Shown here: one piece after another, positions 33,348-41,253 of the stretch
Position numbering within the stretch: the first letter of the stretch is position 1
Layout of the letters: each line of letters begins with the position of its first letter
Source: Bdellovibrio sp. ZAP7
GTDB lineage: Bacteria > Bdellovibrionota > UBA1018 > CAIMNF01
Assembly: GCA_945874535.1 (NCBI GenBank)
Contig: CAMCGZ010000020.1
Coordinates: 1 to 43,113, forward strand
Direction: 5' to 3'
DNA length: 43,113 nucleotides
The notes under the pieces: generated by a model
Told to the model about the DNA's origin: nothing
Database searches by the model: none
The model's input: only the letters and a program-made list of their open reading frames with translations
Made by a program: the position numbers and the translations under genes

Positions 33348-33848
33348 GTGAACGCGTACGAGAGCGGTACCCAAAAAGTGATCCCGGCCGTGTTGCTTTA
33401 TGCATTCCGAGGGCACGAGCTATTGATGATCCACGGCAAGAAAAAGTGGAACGGTCTCGGAGGCAAGCTCGAACCAGGCGAAACCATGGCCGAGGCAGCC
33501 GTGAGGGAATTCCAGGAAGAGTCTGATTGCACGACCGTTCCGGTACAATGGCGGCGCTTGGGAGAACTCTACTTCCCGAACTTCAAGGCCGATAAAAAAG
33601 AAGACTGGTGGGTCACGGTGTTTGTGACTGACTTGAGCGATGAACAAGTGTCGCAAATTCCGCTCGAAGACCCGCTCCGTCCCGAAGGCAGTCTTCATTT
33701 GGTTCCCCTGTCGAGAGTCGACTGCCTGGACCTCTGGGAGGGCGACCGGCTGTTTCTTCCTTATGTATTCGAGCGAAAGCCCTTTCAAGGGACCCTCTTC
33801 TACCGCGACGGAAAATGCGTCCGTCATGAGCTTTCCGCCATCATCTGA
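33348..33848 (+). CDS. Nudix hydrolase, MTH1/MutT-like
   Basis: A 166-residue pyrophosphohydrolase resembling oxidised-purine nucleotide diphosphatases (MTH1 type), which remove 8-oxo-dGTP and related nucleotides. The Nudix box runs from GKLEPGE through REFQEESDC; the metal-binding R-E-x-x-E-E core is complete, but the Gly near its end is Asp. The C-terminal FERKPFQGTLFYRDG resembles the MTH1 C-terminal strand pair. It starts with GTG at 33348, with GGAG nine bases before it. Its last 25 bases overlap the convergent FHA regulator gene. Substrate preference is inferred from overall similarity only. Confidence 0.85.
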   Translation: MNAYESGTQKVIPAVLLYAFRGHELLMIHGKKKWNGLGGKLEPGETMAEAAVREFQEESDCTTVPVQWRRLGELYFPNFKADKKEDWWVTVFVTDLSDEQVSQIPLEDPLRPEGSLHLVPLSRVDCLDLWEGDRLFLPYVFERKPFQGTLFYRDGKCVRHELSAII

Positions 33849-35125
33849 AATCGCGTGCGTTCCAAGGCCCGAGTGCCCGGGATTCCATGACGCTTCATCA
33901 TTTCAAAGAGCGTGCTCCGTGCGACCCCGAGGACGCGGGCAGCATCGCTGCGATTGCCATTGGCGAGCTTGAGCGAGCGAAGGAGCATCCACTTCTCCAT
34001 GTCCTTCAGTGACGAGATCCCGGGCAAACTCACCTCGAATTCTGTGCGCGAGTCCGACTCGGGAGAGAGAAACTCGAAATCCCCGGCCTGAATCAGCGTC
34101 TCAAAGGGGCCGAGCAATCCGGCTGCCCGCTCGATGGCATGACGGAGCTCACGCACATTACCGGGCCAGGTATGAATGCGGAGTCGCAGCAGGGCTTCTT
34201 CGCTCAGGCTCTTGCCGAACCCGCTCGCAAAGCGCTCCGCCAGCAACTTCACGTCTTCCGGCCTTTGGCGAAGGGCCGGGATCGCGACTGGAATGGAGGC
34301 CAGCCGGAAGTACAAGTCTTGCCGGAATTTCCCCTCTTCGACCAGGGCCTTCAGGGGCTTGTGGGTGGCGCACACGATCCGGACATCCGCATGGAGTACC
34401 CGTTCGGAACCCACCGGACGGATCTCGCCGTTTTCTAAAAACCGGAGCAGCTTGACCTGCAACTCCGGGGGCAAGTCTCCGACCTCATCCAAAAAAAGGG
34501 TTCCGCCGTGTGCCTGAAGGAGCGCCCCCGGACGATCCCGCACGGCTCCTGTAAAAGCCCCCTTCACGTGCCCGAAGAGTTCGCTCTCGGCCAAACTGAG
34601 CGCCAAGGCCCCGCAATTGAGTGGCACAAAGGGCCGCGCCGCCCGGTCGGACCAGGCATGGACCAGTCGCGCGAGCACCTCCTTGCCGGTGCCGGTCTCG
34701 CCACTCAGGTAGATGGAGAGTCGGGTCGCGGCACTCCTTCGGACCGCACTCACTAAGGCCTCGCCCTCCTCAGAAGCCGTATGCCAACCCGCCACTCCTT
34801 CGGGAAACTGATGGGTCTCATTGCGGAGGGGCTCATCGCGAAAGCAGAGCTCGGTGTCCCCGATGCGGATCGGGGTGCCGAAGGGAATCTCAAAGGCCTG
34901 GAGTTTCAGGTCGCCCACCCGGGCCGTGAGGCCGGGCTCAAGCACCAACAGTACAGGATTCCGTCCCTCGTGGTGTTCGATGATCATCGACTCGGGCCCG
35001 AGTTTCGGATCCCGGAGGCCTTCCTTCTTGATGTAGTCCGTGCCGAGCACGAAGGGGTACTCGCTCGTTTTGAGGTGTCGCTGATGTCCGCCCGGGTCAC
35101 GTATCGATAGGTAGAGTGTTTTCAT
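33824..35125 (-). CDS. Sigma-54-dependent activator with N-terminal FHA-like domain
   Basis: A protein of about 433 residues. Residues about 1-95 have an FHA-like beta-sandwich pattern (FVLGTDYIKKEGL, a strand, then IRIGDTELCF), which would replace the usual receiver as a phosphothreonine-sensing or protein-binding input. The AAA+ domain has Walker A GETGTGKE, the GAFTGA loop and Walker B LFLDEVGDL. The C-terminal Fis-type helix-turn-helix is NRSDAARVLGVARSTLFEMM. I start at ATG 35123-35125; a GTG one codon earlier is also possible. A near-perfect sigma-54 promoter lies directly upstream, so it probably activates itself. It is divergent from engB and convergent with the Nudix gene. Confidence 0.9.
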   Translation of the reverse strand: MKTLYLSIRDPGGHQRHLKTSEYPFVLGTDYIKKEGLRDPKLGPESMIIEHHEGRNPVLLVLEPGLTARVGDLKLQAFEIPFGTPIRIGDTELCFRDEPLRNETHQFPEGVAGWHTASEEGEALVSAVRRSAATRLSIYLSGETGTGKEVLARLVHAWSDRAARPFVPLNCGALALSLAESELFGHVKGAFTGAVRDRPGALLQAHGGTLFLDEVGDLPPELQVKLLRFLENGEIRPVGSERVLHADVRIVCATHKPLKALVEEGKFRQDLYFRLASIPVAIPALRQRPEDVKLLAERFASGFGKSLSEEALLRLRIHTWPGNVRELRHAIERAAGLLGPFETLIQAGDFEFLSPESDSRTEFEVSLPGISSLKDMEKWMLLRSLKLANGNRSDAARVLGVARSTLFEMMKRHGIPGTRALERTRFQMMAESS

Positions 35126-35139
35126 CACTCGGAGCTATC

Positions 35140-35154
35140 GCAACCCTTGTGCCA
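35140..35154 (-). promoter_or_regulatory. Sigma-54 (-24/-12) promoter
   Basis: The minus strand reads TGGCAC-AAGGG-TTGC, an exact fit to the sigma-54 consensus TGGCAC-N5-TTGC. Transcription should start about 12 bases beyond the -12 GC, near 35128, which is next to the start codon of the FHA/sigma-54 activator gene. This suggests autoregulation or control by another sigma-54 activator, such as the NtrC-like protein at 13194-14525. Confidence 0.8.
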
Positions 35155-35205
35155 GAGCCAAAGTCCAATAGACCGCATTTCAGACGGGGTTCCGGAGGGA
35201 CTTAT

Positions 35206-35214
35206 GCTACACTG
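35206..35214 (+). promoter_or_regulatory. Extended -10 promoter for engB
   Basis: TGCTACACT is TG-N followed by TACACT. Seven bases separate it from the engB ATG at 35222, the same spacing as at the FliL-like gene, again predicting a leaderless transcript. No convincing -35 box is seen. Confidence 0.5.
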
Positions 35215-35221
35215 TTGGCAA

Positions 35222-35821
35222 ATGGCCTCAGAATACCTCATCACGCTCGCCGACCCGGCCCAGCTTCCCACCCTGATCAAGCGGGGCTTCTTGCAAGGAC
35301 ACTCCGAGCCCCGGATTGCTTTTGTCGGGCGCTCGAATGTCGGCAAGAGCTCGCTCATCAATGCTCTTCTGGGCCAGAGGATCGCACGGGTCTCGGCCAC
35401 TCCCGGTAAGACCAAGGCGATTCATTTCTTTTTGTGGGGAGGCCAGAAAAAGATTGTGGCCGATTTACCGGGTTATGGCTTTGCCAAGGTGGCTAAAGAC
35501 GAAATGAAAAGCTGGTCGCGCCTGATGGACGCCTACTTTGCGGCCGACACGGGTCTCATGGCCGTGCTCATGCTGTTTGACAGCCGCCATGGCCCGACCG
35601 ATCAGGACCTCGAGGCGCTCGAGTTCTTTGCCACCAAGGGAACGCCGATTCAAATTGTGATGACCAAGACCGACCAGCTCAAGACGCAGTCCGATCGCGC
35701 CAAGAGAAAGCGTGAAGTCTCGGCCCTGCTCTCGCCTTATGGCATCGAGGACGCAGATCTCGCCTGGGTCTCGGTCAAAGACCAACGCGCACTTGAGGCT
35801 CTCCGGGAGAAGCTCGGATGA
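35222..35821 (+). CDS. engB: Ribosome biogenesis GTPase EngB (YihA/YsxC)
   Basis: A 199-residue essential-type GTPase that helps assemble the large ribosomal subunit. G1 is GRSNVGKSS (residues about 36-44), G2 lies near SATPGKT, G3 is DLPGYGFAK and G4 is TKTDQ, all intact. I start at ATG 35222, since the family begins shortly before the first strand; in-frame ATGs at 35147 and 35204 lie before or inside the putative promoter. It lacks a Shine-Dalgarno sequence, which fits a leaderless start. It is coupled to the next gene by ATGA. Confidence 0.95.
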   Translation: MASEYLITLADPAQLPTLIKRGFLQGHSEPRIAFVGRSNVGKSSLINALLGQRIARVSATPGKTKAIHFFLWGGQKKIVADLPGYGFAKVAKDEMKSWSRLMDAYFAADTGLMAVLMLFDSRHGPTDQDLEALEFFATKGTPIQIVMTKTDQLKTQSDRAKRKREVSALLSPYGIEDADLAWVSVKDQRALEALREKLG

Positions 35822-36819
35822 TCCGGATCGGGATCGTGGCCACCTCTTCGGTGGTGCCGAAGGTGGAGTTCGAAATCGGTGTGAATTTTTTGAAATCGAA
35901 GGGCTTCGAGATCGACGTGCACCCGAAGGTGCTCGGTGAGTCGATGTTCTACCCTGCCCCTGACGCCGAACGGGCCGAAGCCCTGATCGAAATGGCGCTT
36001 CGAAAAGATCTGAACGCGATCTGGTGCGCGCGGGGCGGTTACGGCGCCACTCATTTGCTCCCGATGCTGAATCGGGCCAAGAACAAACTGAAACGGGCTC
36101 CGAAAAAGACCCTCCTCGGATATTCGGATGCCACGGCTCTGCTTGAATGGTTCAGGGTGAACCTCGGTTGGCAGACGATCCACGCCCCCATGCCTTCGCT
36201 CCGCACCTTTTCGCTTTTGCCCGAGAACGAGTGGCACAGTGTCGAGTCGCTCCTCCAGTATTCGGTGAAGCAAGCCAAAGCCCCGAAGGCCGAGTTCAAA
36301 CTCGAGCCGCTCCATGTGCCCAAAGGCTTTGCCCAAGTGGAAGCCCCACTCGTGGGCGGAAATCTGTTTGTGTGGAATAGCTTGCTCGGCACGCCCGATC
36401 AGGGCCAGGCCCGGGGTAAGATTCTGTTCTTAGAAGAAATCTCGGAGAACCTGGGCCGCGTGAACCGCATGATGCATCACCTCGAGCAAGCCGGCGGACT
36501 CAAGGGTGTGAAGGCACTCGTACTCGGAGAATTTTTAGATTGTGTCGATACGGTACCCTCGTGCTTGATGACCGGCCCGGAGCCGGGAGTGGATCTCGAG
36601 AGCTTTTTGTGCCAGCCCCCAAAAGACGCCATGGGCCCGCTCCGGACCCTCCATTCGCCCGAGGTGGCGTTTGATTTCATCTTCAAGGGTGTGGGCGAGC
36701 GGAACCGGATCCCGGTCTTCAAGGGGGTTCCCGTGGGCCATGGGCCGCATCACCATTCGCTGTACCTCGGAAAGAAGCACCGGCTCACGAAAAAGGGCGG
36801 ATTCAACCTGAAGGGCTAA
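35818..36819 (+). CDS. LD-carboxypeptidase (peptidase family S66, LdcA-like)
   Basis: A 333-residue serine peptidase expected to remove the terminal D-Ala from murein tetrapeptides during cell-wall recycling. The nucleophile is Ser 103 in LLGYSDATALL, and the upstream ARGGYGATHLLP is the conserved glycine turn. The catalytic Glu is in LFLEEISE, and the His is probably the one in GVPVGHGPHHH. There is no signal peptide, so it is probably cytosolic. It overlaps engB by ATGA and is followed by a 93-base gap before the tRNA gene; I see no clear terminator there. Confidence 0.9.
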   Translation: MIRIGIVATSSVVPKVEFEIGVNFLKSKGFEIDVHPKVLGESMFYPAPDAERAEALIEMALRKDLNAIWCARGGYGATHLLPMLNRAKNKLKRAPKKTLLGYSDATALLEWFRVNLGWQTIHAPMPSLRTFSLLPENEWHSVESLLQYSVKQAKAPKAEFKLEPLHVPKGFAQVEAPLVGGNLFVWNSLLGTPDQGQARGKILFLEEISENLGRVNRMMHHLEQAGGLKGVKALVLGEFLDCVDTVPSCLMTGPEPGVDLESFLCQPPKDAMGPLRTLHSPEVAFDFIFKGVGERNRIPVFKGVPVGHGPHHHSLYLGKKHRLTKKGGFNLKG

Positions 36820-36912: not shown

Positions 36913-37000
36913 GGCTCAGTGGCGGAATTGGTAGACGCGCTCGATTCAAAATCGTGTTTCCCTCGGGGAAGTGCCGGTTCGATTCCGGCCTGAGCCACCA
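36913..37000 (+). tRNA. tRNA-Leu (anticodon CAA)
   Basis: The 88-base sequence folds as a class II tRNA. The acceptor stem GGCTCAG (36913-36919) pairs with CTGAGCC (36990-36996), discriminator A, encoded CCA at 36998-37000. The anticodon stem CGATT/AATCG encloses TTCAAAA with CAA at 36947-36949, which reads UUG. A long variable arm (TTCCC-TCG-GGGAA) and the T arm CCGGTTCGATTCCGG complete it. The 3' half is repeated at 38693-38756. Confidence 0.97.
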
Positions 37001-37014
37001 CTCTACTCGTTCAT

Positions 37015-37045
37015 GTGCACTTATTCGGGACTTGGGAAAGTGCAC
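37015..37045. repeat. 8-bp inverted repeat beside the tRNA 3' end
   Basis: GTGCACTT at 37015-37022 and AAGTGCAC at 37038-37045 are exact inverted copies with a 15-base loop. They lie 15 bases past the tRNA end and are not followed by a T-run, though the structure could still help end the transcript. In an island context it could also be an arm site for a recombinase. Confidence 0.45.
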
Positions 37046-37195
37046 TCCCCCTTGAAAAACTGTAAAACATTTAGGAATTCGTGGACTCCTATAAACGGTA
37101 ATCCCGACCCTTAGTGGTAGTTATATGACTAGTAATATTCCTATATCTTAGTTCAGGACCAGGTGGTCCGGTCTAAATAGGGGCTACTACACCCA
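37046..37195. other. AT-rich gap within the candidate island
   Basis: No coding sequence is visible. The only motif noted is GGACCA-GG-TGGTCC at 37156-37169, a 6-bp inverted repeat lying 27 bases beyond the stop of the BamE-like gene, in a position where a hairpin could act at the 3' end of that operon. Confidence 0.35.
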
Positions 37196-37723
37196 TTATT
37201 TGGTGTACTCAGAAGAAACTCTGCGCTTGATATCAGGTAAATTGAAACCAATTGCATTCACAATCTGATCTCTTCCAGAGGTCGTGAACAAAATTCCCCG
37301 TCCTGGATCATAATAACTTACATCCTCAGAATAAGAATGGCCCTGATTGTCCCATCCTTTTACCTTGCGAATAAAATTTGCTCCCCTAAAGTGCTCCTGA
37401 ACAGCTTGTACACTTTCAAGAGGATCCGACTCATAGGGCATCCAAAGCGCGCCAACCAGGATTTCACCATCAAATGAAAAAGATGCTTTTTGTCCTATTG
37501 CTCCAGTACTCAGCATTTCATTGTAAATCCAAGCTTCTTGTGTGGCAGAACGAGGTGATACTTTGACTGGCTTCCCAAAAAGCGTGCGCACTTGGTCCTT
37601 TGTGGATTTCCCTGGTTCCAGTTTTTCAACGTCAGCAAAAGAAACGATCCTGGCTGAGGGAAGTGAAAAGCTCGCGCAGGAGGTGAGACCGAGGATCAGT
37701 AATAAGTTTAAAGCTAGTTTCAT
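37196..37723 (-). CDS. BamE/SmpA-like lipoprotein
   Basis: A 175-residue predicted lipoprotein with signal peptide LNLLLILGLTSC and the lipid-bearing Cys at about 16. Residues about 35-70 (LEPGKSTKDQVRTLFGKP, then AWIYNE) match the BamE/SmpA fold, where G-x-S/T-x-x-x-V-x-x-x-x-G-x-P precedes a W-x-Y strand. The C-terminal 90 residues extend beyond standard BamE and are not recognised. It is coupled to the upstream gene by an ATGA overlap, so the two secreted proteins probably function together. The DNA is AT-richer than the core genes. Confidence 0.75.
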   Translation of the reverse strand: MKLALNLLLILGLTSCASFSLPSARIVSFADVEKLEPGKSTKDQVRTLFGKPVKVSPRSATQEAWIYNEMLSTGAIGQKASFSFDGEILVGALWMPYESDPLESVQAVQEHFRGANFIRKVKGWDNQGHSYSEDVSYYDPGRGILFTTSGRDQIVNAIGFNLPDIKRRVSSEYTK

Positions 37724-38499
37724 TTCACAATCCTCAGTTTAAAGTTACCACCGAATTTTTTTGAAATCCAATCATACACTTTTGGGCTTTTTTCTTTCAA
37801 CGTCTTTGGATTAAATAGAAAATACTCAATATTATTGGCAAAATCCTCTTCAGGGTTATTTTGGGAGTCATCCTCAACAAAGCCTTTACGATTGAGCGTC
37901 AATTCCTTGTCTCTTAACCCATTCCAAAGTGTCGCCTCCCACTCAGCTGCGATCGCGTAGTCCACTTGCTCTGGCTTTTCCATGCCTTGAAAATAGATGT
38001 GCGAAAACTCATAGCCTAACACACGTGCAACATTCCGCTTGCTCTCGAAAGCCTTATCGTAGAGCGCAATTTGATTTTGAAAGTTTGCAGCAGGGTTTTC
38101 TGGCAGCTGCGCCGAAGTCTTTAACCGGTAGATCCCCGAAACGATCTTATTAACCAACAATGGTGGCAACGCAGATATAGCCTCCAGAACTTTTTCTTTT
38201 TCATCTTCGGTCCAGACTTTTGATTTTTCGTTTTTGAACTCCCATTTCGGAGGCAAACGAGCCTTCAGACGATTATTCCAAAATGCATAAGATGCAGGGT
38301 TTTTTTTGCAGCCTGCTCGATGGTTGGAGCCGGAAACCGGCGTTCCATCACTACGGACATAAGCGCTTTGTATGTGCGCTTGCACCCAATGCTCTCCCGG
38401 AGGACATGAATTAGAAGCTGTGCCTTCTTGAACAGTCGCGAAGCTTATGGGCGAAAACATGAACGCAAAAAGTAATGTGAAAAAAGCAGTCTTGACCAT
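37720..38499 (-). CDS. Secreted metallopeptidase-like protein with altered zinc motif
   Basis: A 259-residue protein with a signal peptide (residues 1-21, ending SFA). A Cys-flanked N-terminal module (CPPGEHWVQAHI ... YVRSDGTPV ... AGC, residues 32-64) is followed by a helical domain. In that domain, LGYEFSHIYF (161-170) is placed like a zinc-metallopeptidase helix, and NPEEDFANNIEYFLFNP near 219-235 resembles the third-ligand helix of the same proteins. The first zinc-binding His is Tyr 163, encoded TAT, one transition from CAT. The protein may therefore be inactive or use another ligand. It is the first gene of the island operon; a TATAAT box lies 29 bases upstream. Confidence 0.65.
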   Translation of the reverse strand: MVKTAFFTLLFAFMFSPISFATVQEGTASNSCPPGEHWVQAHIQSAYVRSDGTPVSGSNHRAGCKKNPASYAFWNNRLKARLPPKWEFKNEKSKVWTEDEKEKVLEAISALPPLLVNKIVSGIYRLKTSAQLPENPAANFQNQIALYDKAFESKRNVARVLGYEFSHIYFQGMEKPEQVDYAIAAEWEATLWNGLRDKELTLNRKGFVEDDSQNNPEEDFANNIEYFLFNPKTLKEKSPKVYDWISKKFGGNFKLRIVK

Positions 38500-38528
38500 C
38501 TGGGCTGTCTATCACAAGACTTTTAGAA

Positions 38529-38534
38529 ATTATA
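38529..38534 (-). promoter_or_regulatory. -10 box for the island operon
   Basis: The minus strand reads TATAAT, a perfect -10 hexamer inside GGCTAATATAATTTC, with no convincing -35 box. It predicts a start near 38522 and a leader of about 22 bases before the ATG at 38499. Confidence 0.5.
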
Positions 38535-38692
38535 TTAGCCTTCGATACTTCAAGAAAATAATCGAAGACCATGTTCGATTTTCGGACCACAGCCTTGGTT
38601 ACGCCAGACTTCTCATTTCACTCTCTACGAAATATCAAAGTAACCCCTAAAAATTTCGCATTTTCAGTATTGTTCCACTGGCACACAAACAG

Positions 38693-38756
38693 GATTCAAA
38701 ATCGTGTCTCCTTACGGGTGTTCCGGTTCGATTCCGGCCTGAGCCACCACTCTACT
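38693..38756 (+). repeat. Partial tRNA-Leu copy (possible attachment site or decayed tRNA)
   Basis: GATTCAAAATCGTGT (38693-38707) equals 36943-36957 of the tRNA gene, including the CAA anticodon, and 38723-38756 equals 36974-37007, with CCA. The variable arm between them differs (CTCCTTACGGG against TTCCCTCGGGG). Upstream only scattered D-arm identity remains (TGGCACAC against TGGTAGAC), and the 5' acceptor strand is gone, so it cannot fold into a full tRNA. It marks the far end of the candidate island. Confidence 0.85.
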
Positions 38757-38915
38757 TCCAAATAGACACTCAAATTCCCACTTTTCGTGATGACCTCGAT
38801 TTCACTCCTTCGGCAATGGATGGTTCCATGAAAGTCAAAATCGAAAAAATAAAGAATTGTTCCCATTGCAATGTCAAAACTCCGGCGGAACCTGGAAGTC
38901 CAGATAGCCCGACCG
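38757..38915. other. Gap after the tRNA fragment
   Basis: AT-rich sequence with no convincing gene. A 59-codon plus-strand frame (38816-38995) with a CxxC pair lacks a ribosome-binding site and runs into the antisense of the next gene, so I do not call it. Confidence 0.4.
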
Positions 38916-39362
38916 CTAATTCACCGATCCGAATACCTTTCGATAAATCGGTGCTCTTCCCGCAAACACCACCCACAAAGGTGCATAAAGCATGACATCG
39001 AGGAGCCGACTCCCTGATGAGTATTCGATCTGATCCAGAATCTCCGATGTGCCAGAAGCGGTCACCCTCACCTCATGGCGATGTTTCCATTTTCGCAAAG
39101 GAAACGGGAGTGACGCCCCGACATCGACAAAGGACCAGGAGTTCTCGGTAAAAGAATCCTCGACGATATGACTGATCCAGGGCTGAAGGAACCCGGGCAC
39201 TCCCGTACGCAGGTGAACTTCATTTCCCCGCTCGCAGCCATCGAAACGGTCTAATTCCAATTTAAGGAAAAAGGGTTTCAATTGCAGAAAGAGGTCCCGG
39301 TTGAACCCTACCTTGACTTCCCTTAATGAAGACCTGACCTCGGTGCTAAATTTAAGCTGCAT
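38916..39362 (-). CDS. SRPBCC-like (START/cyclase fold) protein
   Basis: A 148-residue protein probably of the SRPBCC ligand-binding superfamily, as suggested by its N-terminal strand MQLKFSTEV, the following helix with FNRDLFLQLKPF, several beta-strands, and a long C-terminal helix (SGSRLLDVMLYAPLWVVFAG). There is no signal peptide. The ATG at 39360-39362 is preceded by AGGGGGA, a strong ribosome-binding site, which decides the start over upstream options. Ligand unknown. It lies just outside the candidate island. Confidence 0.65.
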   Translation of the reverse strand: MQLKFSTEVRSSLREVKVGFNRDLFLQLKPFFLKLELDRFDGCERGNEVHLRTGVPGFLQPWISHIVEDSFTENSWSFVDVGASLPFPLRKWKHRHEVRVTASGTSEILDQIEYSSGSRLLDVMLYAPLWVVFAGRAPIYRKVFGSVN

Positions 39363-39435
39363 GAATCCCCCTGAAGCGGACGTCAAGAACCCGTCGGTAC
39401 ATTTTGATGCCTCCCCATAGTAAACTGGAAGTGGG

Positions 39436-39855
39436 ATGAAAGTACTATTTTTTAGCCTATTGGCTCTCAGCAGTATCCATGCCGCGAACAAAAAGATTCC
39501 AGGGTGCGGGGATCAATCCTTTTTTGTAGTAGAGGGTAAAAAGATTGAATTCTGTTGGCTCCCTAAAATCGAAGCTTGGGTCAGCATCCATTGTGTTCAG
39601 AAGAAAAAACCTGACTGTAAAGCATTAACCCTGTATCAGTCGCTTCTGAAGCCAGTCGTCGTGATGGAGAGCGAAGAGCTCAACGGGGGCAAGAATCCAG
39701 GCAGCGTCCTGTGCGGAAAAATCGGGGGGACCCTGCAATACGCGATTCTTGAAGGGGGCAGTCAGCAGACCTTTTGTTCGGCCGCCGACGGTAGCTTGAT
39801 TGACTCCAATGCCCTCAGCAATGCGTACTATGCCGGCGAGAAAATCAAAAAATGA
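39436..39855 (+). CDS. Secreted DUF333-like small protein
   Basis: A 139-residue protein with a cleavable signal peptide (MKVLFFSLLALSSIHAA). The C-terminal half has NPGSVLCGKIGGTLQYAI and QQTFCSAADGSLID, matching the DUF333 pattern (N-P-A-x-x-x-C-x-x-x-G-G, then C-x-x-x-D-G), a family loosely annotated as putative haemolysin or inhibitor. It contains six Cys in the mature part, consistent with disulfides outside the cytosol. It is coupled by ATGA to a papain-like protease, so it could be its inhibitor, chaperone or substrate. TAAACT nine bases before the ATG may be the -10 box. Confidence 0.7.
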   Translation: MKVLFFSLLALSSIHAANKKIPGCGDQSFFVVEGKKIEFCWLPKIEAWVSIHCVQKKKPDCKALTLYQSLLKPVVVMESEELNGGKNPGSVLCGKIGGTLQYAILEGGSQQTFCSAADGSLIDSNALSNAYYAGEKIKK

Positions 39856-40913
39856 AGATCAAGGGCTTCATTCTTCTGCCTCTTACACTGCTTTTGGGAA
39901 TGGGTTCAGTATCCCATGCGGATGACTGCGAAGCACTCAACCTGAATGACGACTACAATTCTCCGTTTCGAAGCATGCCGGTTTATGACCAGGATGGCAG
40001 CGGAACCTGCTACGCCCATGCTGCAGCACAAATGGTGAATTACTGGAGAATCAAAAAGGGCGAAAAAGATCTCATCAGCCCGATCTATGCAGCTTGGCAG
40101 ATGTCTAACAACACTGGCGCTAAAGATACTTATGCCGGATTCTCAAAAACTGTGGTGAGCGATCTGAAAAAAAACGGTTATTGTCCATCCAAACAGGTAG
40201 AGACCTGTTTAAAGGCCTGGAAAAAGACCGGTGGAAATCTGACCGATGCTCAACTGATTCACTTCTTTGAGAAACTTTATAAAAACAAACATATCTTCAA
40301 TCCACTTTGGCTGACTGATGTGGACGTAAGCCAGGACGGCTATTTGGGAAGTCGCTGCGAGCCCTTGATGAATCATGTTCGAAAAAATGAAATCTCTTTC
40401 AGCTATTTCCAAACTTCAAATGAAATCCTGAAATCGATCTTCAAGGACTGCAAGCCAATCACCAGCCTAGCAAGCATCCCCGATCCCAAAGTTTACGAAT
40501 TTGCCACCTTCAAGGTGAAAGAACAAAGAATCGATGAATCCCTCGCGAAGGGCTTCCCTGTCGCCATCGATATGTGTAACACCATTAGGACCAATCAAAA
40601 ATTCCGTCCCATGAATGAAAAAAATCAGGTGGGAGGACACAAAAATGCCAAAGGCGAAAAAGATTGCAACTATCATGCGGTTTTGGTGACTGCCCGAAAG
40701 AAAATCGGTAATTCCTGTTCGTACCTGGTCCGTAACTCTTGGGGAGCTTTTGACAGCCCCAAGGGAATTCAATGCGCCTGCTATTTAAAGAGCGGCTACT
40801 ACAACTCAAACTGTACCCATCCGAGTCGAGCAAAGGAGATCAAAGAGATTGTGGGGTGTTGGTATTCGAAAGAGGATCTTCTTTCGAATACTGACCGGGT
40901 CACCACTCTTTGA
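39852..40913 (+). CDS. Secreted papain-like cysteine protease (C1 family)
   Basis: A 353-residue protein with a signal peptide (residues 1-23, ending SHA). The catalytic Cys is 53 in VYDQDGSGTCYAHAAAQM, the papain Q-x-G-x-C arrangement with Gln as QD. His 275 is in CNYHAVLVTA, and Asn 295 is in YLVRNSWGAF. All three are intact, so it should be active. There is no papain-type propeptide: the catalytic domain begins about 25 residues after the signal peptide. An insert of about 100 residues with several Cys sits between the Cys and His regions. The coupled DUF333-like gene upstream may supply control that a propeptide normally gives. It converges with the XRE gene with 10 bases between. Confidence 0.85.
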   Translation: MKIKGFILLPLTLLLGMGSVSHADDCEALNLNDDYNSPFRSMPVYDQDGSGTCYAHAAAQMVNYWRIKKGEKDLISPIYAAWQMSNNTGAKDTYAGFSKTVVSDLKKNGYCPSKQVETCLKAWKKTGGNLTDAQLIHFFEKLYKNKHIFNPLWLTDVDVSQDGYLGSRCEPLMNHVRKNEISFSYFQTSNEILKSIFKDCKPITSLASIPDPKVYEFATFKVKEQRIDESLAKGFPVAIDMCNTIRTNQKFRPMNEKNQVGGHKNAKGEKDCNYHAVLVTARKKIGNSCSYLVRNSWGAFDSPKGIQCACYLKSGYYNSNCTHPSRAKEIKEIVGCWYSKEDLLSNTDRVTTL

Positions 40914-40923
40914 ATCCTCGTAC

Positions 40924-41253
40924 TCACCCCTTCGGCATGAGTCTCACGATTTTGATCTCGCAGAGGGCATCGAGGATGTGCTCCCGATGAAAATCGAGGC
41001 TTGGTGGTCCTGCATCCACCTCTCCCGTCAGCACCTGGGTCAGGGTCTTTCCGAACCGGTTCGAAAAAGTCCGAAGTTTTGACAACTGTTCAGAGGCCGG
41101 ATAACTCCCTTGCCTCCACGCACTCAAAACTGAGGGAGAAACACCGATCTCAGCCGCAATTTGTTTCGCCGAATAACGGTGTTCTTCAATGATTCCCTCG
41201 ATAAACTGGGCCAAGGGGGACTGGTGATCGGTCTTTCGGGGTTGGCGTGGCAT
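40924..41253 (-). CDS. XRE-family transcriptional regulator
   Basis: A 109-residue DNA-binding protein. The helix-turn-helix is RYSAKQIAAEIGVSPSVLSA (residues about 26-45), followed by WRQGSYPASEQLSKL, the usual end of an XRE domain. The C-terminal 45 residues could be a dimerisation or ligand segment. A 10-bp imperfect inverted repeat lies 5 bases upstream of the ATG, which suggests that the protein represses its own gene. It is transcribed toward the protease gene. Confidence 0.85.
   Translation of the reverse strand: MPRQPRKTDHQSPLAQFIEGIIEEHRYSAKQIAAEIGVSPSVLSAWRQGSYPASEQLSKLRTFSNRFGKTLTQVLTGEVDAGPPSLDFHREHILDALCEIKIVRLMPKG

Follow-up and report, generated by a model that had tools for sequence, protein, structure and literature searches.

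An intact tRNA gene with a 3' fragment of it in the same orientation downstream is the signature used for mapping tRNA islands (PMC4383910). In the Islander collection, the islands have a length range of 2-200 kb, and 2083 of 3919 are anticodon-centred (PMC4383910). Here, we analysed a window of 43,113 nucleotides, which makes up a complete contig in a draft genome of 2.42 Mb and 39 contigs (96% complete), and found this signature at its tRNA-Leu(CAA) gene. The intact gene is followed on the same strand by a 3' fragment. Islander breaks fall at known sub-sites (anticodon loop, T loop, T/acceptor junction), and the break at this locus falls exactly at the anticodon stem. When the outer flanks are joined, a tRNA gene is restored, as called by ARAGORN.

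The locus is like the Islander islands in its anticodon-centred attachment, its odd composition and its variable content beside a conserved flank. However, there is no integrase inside or overlapping the bracketed block, its length (1749-1750 bp, from repeat start to repeat start) is below 2 kb, and its 3' copies have different variable arms. The locus is probably a remnant. As a kind, we regard it as a fairly ordinary relic of tRNA-gene insertion.

The tRNA-Leu(CAA) gene and its displaced 3' copy

ARAGORN called one tRNA in the whole window, tRNA-Leu(CAA). The features of the gene and of its repeated 3' part are as follows.

36913-37000, plus strand: tRNA-Leu(CAA), complete with encoded CCA (ARAGORN, Rfam RF00005, alignment with relatives)
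36943-37007, plus strand: tRNA-proximal repeat, attL-like, running from the anticodon stem to 7 nt past CCA and regenerating the tRNA (repeat search, BLAST)
38693-38756, plus strand: displaced tRNA-Leu(CAA) 3' fragment, attR-like, with the standard variable arm of the order

The first identical block, GATTCAAAATCGTGT (15 nt, anticodon stem-loop), occurs at 36943-36957 and 38693-38707, and the second, CCGGTTCGATTCCGGCCTGAGCCACCACTCTACT (34 nt, from the T-stem to 7 nt past CCA), at 36974-37007 and 38723-38756. Between these blocks lies the variable arm, which differs in the two copies. A first-pass annotation of this DNA had described just these repeats of 15 and 34 bases, 1.75 kb apart with a different variable arm between them, and we confirmed them exactly. 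It had also noted that the repeat runs seven bases beyond CCA; indeed, both 34-nt blocks include the 7 nt CTCTACT after CCA, beyond which the sequences following the two copies are unrelated. The homology starts at the 5' strand of the anticodon stem, as placed by repeat search and alignment with relatives.

In a BLAST comparison of the tRNA 3' part with its own 6.1 kb downstream, 65 nt matched at 89% identity (E = 6e-17), which excludes chance. The fragment search covered the stretches downstream of each tRNA gene in the genome, where 35 are called. Among those with enough downstream sequence, no comparably long fragment of another tRNA was found, excepting neighbouring tRNAs and a separate short RNA family described below.

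Across the order, the variable arm of tRNA-Leu(CAA) is mostly TATCCTTACGGGTGT or a close variant. The displaced copy carries a standard arm of the TATCCTTACGGGTGT type, and the tRNA now in place has the unusual arm TTTCCCTCGGGGAAGTG. A degenerate form of the TTTCCCTCGGGGAAGTG arm was scanned over 84,980 species, a set that may leave out the window's own genome, and was found only in Bdellovibrionales bacterium SZAS-1 (G010).

Flanks, composition and cargo

Upstream of the tRNA (flank 33824-36819) lie three genes, and a further stretch of low GC follows the displaced fragment.

33824-35128, minus strand: sigma-54 activator (Pfam)
35147-35821, plus strand: EngB-type GTPase (named by eye)
35818-36819, plus strand: S66 LD-carboxypeptidase (Pfam)
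38757-40930, no strand: further low-GC variable stretch after the fragment (composition; BLAST against the contigs of G006 and G009)

The order of sigma-54 activator, EngB-type GTPase, S66 peptidase and tRNA-Leu(CAA) is kept in five congeners (G003, G011, G008, G001, G010). In the stretches retrieved from congeners, the tRNA is followed by nothing that lies downstream of it in the window. Since the upstream order is conserved and the downstream content is not shared, tRNA-Leu(CAA) marks the edge of a variable region. We also compared the sequence after each 3' copy with the sequence after the tRNA in ten relatives as a search for an empty site, and the matches were not significant apart from marginal values.

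The GC content falls from 58% upstream of the tRNA to 43% in the block, and is 47% at 38757-40900. The value for comparison is 55% GC, and 1.2% of 1082 same-size windows from the genome are as GC-poor as the block. The enclosed block is thus AT-rich, as the first-pass annotation stated, but low GC persists past the second copy as far as about 40.9 kb, and the anomaly in composition therefore extends outside the bracketed block. BLAST against the contigs of G006 and G009, the closest relatives, showed that sequence which the window shares with them resumes at 40.93-40.96 kb.

Directly after the displaced fragment, low-GC secreted-protein genes at 39436-40913 comprise a DUF333-like protein and a 353-aa ORF; the latter has cysteine-peptidase-like motifs by eye and is without a Pfam match. 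The contigs of G006 and G009 break before that shared sequence resumes, and there is no tRNA-Leu(CAA) on them, which possibly reflects a contig gap or another insertion at the hot spot. In G009 (L124:5240-8762; the G006 locus is L125), a BNR-repeat gene and a FecR-domain gene come after the S66 gene instead, and tRNA-Leu(CAA) was not found.

The block itself contains two genes, overlapping by 4 nt.

37196-37723, minus strand: 175-aa lipoprotein with BamE-like domain (ORF; Pfam BamE 26.6 bits, cut-off 23.2)
37720-38499, minus strand: 259-aa secreted metallopeptidase-like protein (ORF; Pfam Mx1/M90 and NCBIfam LP_HExxH, all below cut-off)

With a BamE domain above and a metallopeptidase-like match below the cut-off, the earlier label of envelope genes is a fair one. 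In the metallopeptidase-like protein, HExxH is replaced by YEFSH at residues 163-167 (YExxH). All homologues aligned over that site retain HExxH, so that the window protein is probably inactive as a peptidase. The BamE-like lipoprotein gene has a 61% identical partner gene in G012, and the cargo gene pair recurs in G012, G039, G045, G005 and others, where it does not adjoin tRNA-Leu.

No integrase was found in the block, and PF00589 had no match on the window contig. Two matches were identified in the whole genome, tyrosine recombinases that are Xer-like in length, both on other contigs. Within the genus, no contig with tRNA-Leu(CAA) carries a PF00589 match. A phage or plasmid origin of the cargo was considered and rejected, as the cargo had no DNA or protein match in phage or plasmid records or viral contigs. 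The sole PHROG match of the cargo is a family of unknown function, and no viral contig carried either tRNA-Leu(CAA) 3' half or variable arm. Defence-system cargo was likewise rejected, with no PADLOC match.

Other elements at tRNA genes

We found comparable blocks at tRNA-Leu genes of relatives. In SZAS-1 (L034:4146-5211), a 45-bp repeat (98%) brackets about 1.0 kb after tRNA-Leu(CAA). The repeat consists of the last 7 nt of the tRNA (GCCACCA) and 38 nt beyond, and the block holds a BrnA-like antitoxin, below the NCBIfam cut-off. This block shares with the window block the same tRNA with the same unusual arm, its small size, its AT-rich composition, the absence of an integrase and the bracketing by a tRNA-end repeat. 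It differs in the extent of its repeat, GCCACCA plus 38 nt past the tRNA, and in its cargo, an antitoxin remnant. In G030, the end of tRNA-Leu(CAA) and the following sequence recur 3.6 kb downstream (81% over 57 nt), and no integrase was noticed among the ORFs of this block.

In G016, which belongs to the same order (L161, G016:C2:14000-29300), tRNA-Leu(UAA) is followed by about 9.6 kb that ends beside the tRNA-end fragment GGCACCAAA. A tyrosine-recombinase-like ORF, named by eye, adjoins the far end. This region is likely a complete integrative element. As in the window, the target is a tRNA-Leu and a tRNA-end fragment lies at the far end; unlike the window block, it is about 9.6 kb long, has an integrase-like ORF, and uses a different tRNA and attachment sequence.

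Two candidate repeats were discarded. A 9.7-kb repeat at the same tRNA-Leu(UAA) is mostly an insertion-sequence end with only a short tRNA-end match, and a 45-nt sequence after the SZAS-1 block and near G016 tRNAs, considered as an attachment site, looks like an insertion-sequence end. A conserved sequence, TTCTACTCACACAATRGTGRGAAGCCCCACATCAA, was observed near tRNA genes at L164-L174 (G010, G005, G016, G039, G019); G016 has seven copies. It resembles the end of an insertion sequence whose transposase is ISL3-like (by eye) and that may favour sites after tRNAs.

While checking the genome's other tRNAs, we met a family of structured elements of about 150 nt directly 3' of tRNA genes, which is a separate matter from the tRNA-Leu(CAA) block.

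G000:C13:30928-31070, minus strand: structured RNA copy in this genome
G000:C2:74331-74474, minus strand: structured RNA copy in this genome
G000:C11:62547-62690, minus strand: structured RNA copy in this genome
L175:13048-13202, minus strand: divergent structured RNA copy (relatives' copies, L202-L230)

The three genome copies follow tRNA-Val, tRNA-Cys and tRNA-Arg, and across the family the preceding tRNAs are Val, Cys, Arg, Ser, Asp, Leu, Pro, Met and Lys. Compensatory changes among the three copies affect 16 of 45 predicted pairs. At the Val, Cys and Leu copy loci, no Rfam family other than tRNA matched. A model of the 144-position structured core (R1) matched 19 of 58 related genomes, with best E between 1e-41 and 1e-12, and had no match in the window. 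Of the R1 matches examined, most (22/29) have a same-strand tRNA within 1.2 kb upstream. About half of those 22 contain an exact 21-nt copy of their own tRNA 3' end, from the T loop to CCA, and most others a shorter copy. The 5' strand of the elements tends to be complementary to the same tRNA end (mean alignment score 10.5 for the own tRNA versus 5.9 for other tRNAs). We found no description of such an RNA in the literature searched, which is a weak test. Apparently, these tRNA-tail elements are an undescribed tRNA-linked RNA or mini-element family.

Origin of the two 3' halves

In a tree of three neighbouring proteins, SZAS-1 falls outside the clade formed by the window's genome (G000), G006, G009, G003, G011, G008 and G001, and all other clade members with a known arm (4/4) have the standard arm. 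The displaced half is 92% identical to the corresponding part in G003 and G011, 90% to that in G008 and G001, and 89% to the local copy. Because these differences (92/90 versus 89%) are small, we can only infer from them that the displaced copy is the native 3' half. When joined in silico to the native 5' half, it gives an 87-nt tRNA-Leu(CAA) in ARAGORN, with one T-stem mismatch. The simplest reading of these sequences is that the unusual arm was imported into the present tRNA, which would fit a crossover in the anticodon stem-loop with displacement of the native half.

We propose, with a probability of roughly three in four, that the locus is the scar of a site-specific integration in the anticodon region of tRNA-Leu(CAA), which moved the native 3' half 1.75 kb downstream. 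An element whose attachment site contained the 3' part of a tRNA-Leu(CAA) gene would have recombined with the chromosomal gene in the anticodon stem-loop, in the style of tyrosine integrases. The present tRNA would then be a chimera of the native 5' half and the element's 3' part with the unusual arm, and the original 3' half would have been pushed to the far end, where it was free to mutate. What remains would be a two-gene secreted-protein cassette of 1.75 kb without an integrase, either because the rest of the element was deleted or because an enzyme encoded elsewhere inserted the piece in trans.

The anticodon-stem break, the displaced arm of native type, the restored tRNA, the SZAS-1 parallel, the unshared downstream gene content and the AT-rich composition support an integrated element; the lack of an integrase, the size below 2 kb and the low GC running past the second copy count against it, and no empty site was seen in the relatives compared. 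A further point against it is the 34 nt common to both 3' copies, which require that the element end came from this lineage or that the ends were homogenised. The first-pass annotation had suggested an integrated element that lost its integrase. Our results agree with integration and with the missing integrase, and they fit loss as well as original absence of the enzyme.

Alternatively, the crossover may have taken place in the T-arm/CCA block, so that the present tRNA is wholly native and an element from a standard-arm congener brought in 38693-38756. The core could then be the 34-nt block, the longest stretch of perfect identity, and the left part of the fragment has one difference over 39 nt from the tRNA of G011, G008 and G001, including the T before CCGG. 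However, two events would be needed, in which the host gains the odd arm and then the element, the standard arm occurs in relatives inside and outside the clade, and the homology extends to the anticodon stem, beyond such a core. We consider this course unlikely. Somewhat less likely again is a non-autonomous cassette of 1-4 kb that uses tRNA-Leu 3' ends as attachment sites and an integrase in trans, and that did not decay from a larger element. Three integrase-free tRNA-Leu(CAA) blocks in the order (1.75 kb here, about 1.0 kb in G010, 3.6 kb in G030) would be expected from it, as would the lack of integrase matches on the tRNA-Leu(CAA) contigs of the genus. Yet the three blocks have no common genes or ends, deletion remnants would appear identical, no partner integrase was identified, and the cargo peptidase minus its first active-site His suggests decay.

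The other suggestion of the first-pass annotation was a tandem tRNA-Leu that decayed, with a gene pair captured in between. In its favour, the variable arm of the fragment is its own, as expected of a second gene, and an ungapped comparison of the adjacent 30 nt gave a marginal match (11/30, P = 0.045). But local alignment of the 60 nt before the fragment detected no 5' half (P = 0.58), a perfect 34-nt 3' block would stand beside an unrecognisable 5' half, and none of the relatives examined has two tandem tRNA-Leu(CAA) genes here, the arrangement that the annotation had named as a sign of simple tRNA decay. This origin is very improbable. We give equally little credence to a duplication that was not site-specific, to homologous recombination or to an assembly artefact. 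The window is a single contig of a draft assembly and GC is low on both sides of the fragment, but a simple duplication fits as poorly as a repeat collapse: past the first 7 nt, what follows one copy is unrelated to what follows the other, the break falls at a functionally meaningful point, and the copies have different variable arms.

Going beyond the proposed integration scar, one could imagine that tRNA-Leu(CAA) of this order is a dock for tiny integrase-free cassettes moved in trans, whose attachment sites swap in a foreign arm, with the tRNA gene exchanged between species (here with SZAS-1); we regard this as a doubtful conjecture. Islander-type searches would miss the window locus, since an integrase and a length of 2 kb or more are among their requirements. 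Taken together, the locus documents tRNA-Leu(CAA) as a hot spot for insertion in an uncultured Bdellovibrionales group. As its two 3' copies are distinguishable, the direction of exchange can be argued. The locus also shows that the variable arm of a functional tRNA may have been acquired horizontally.
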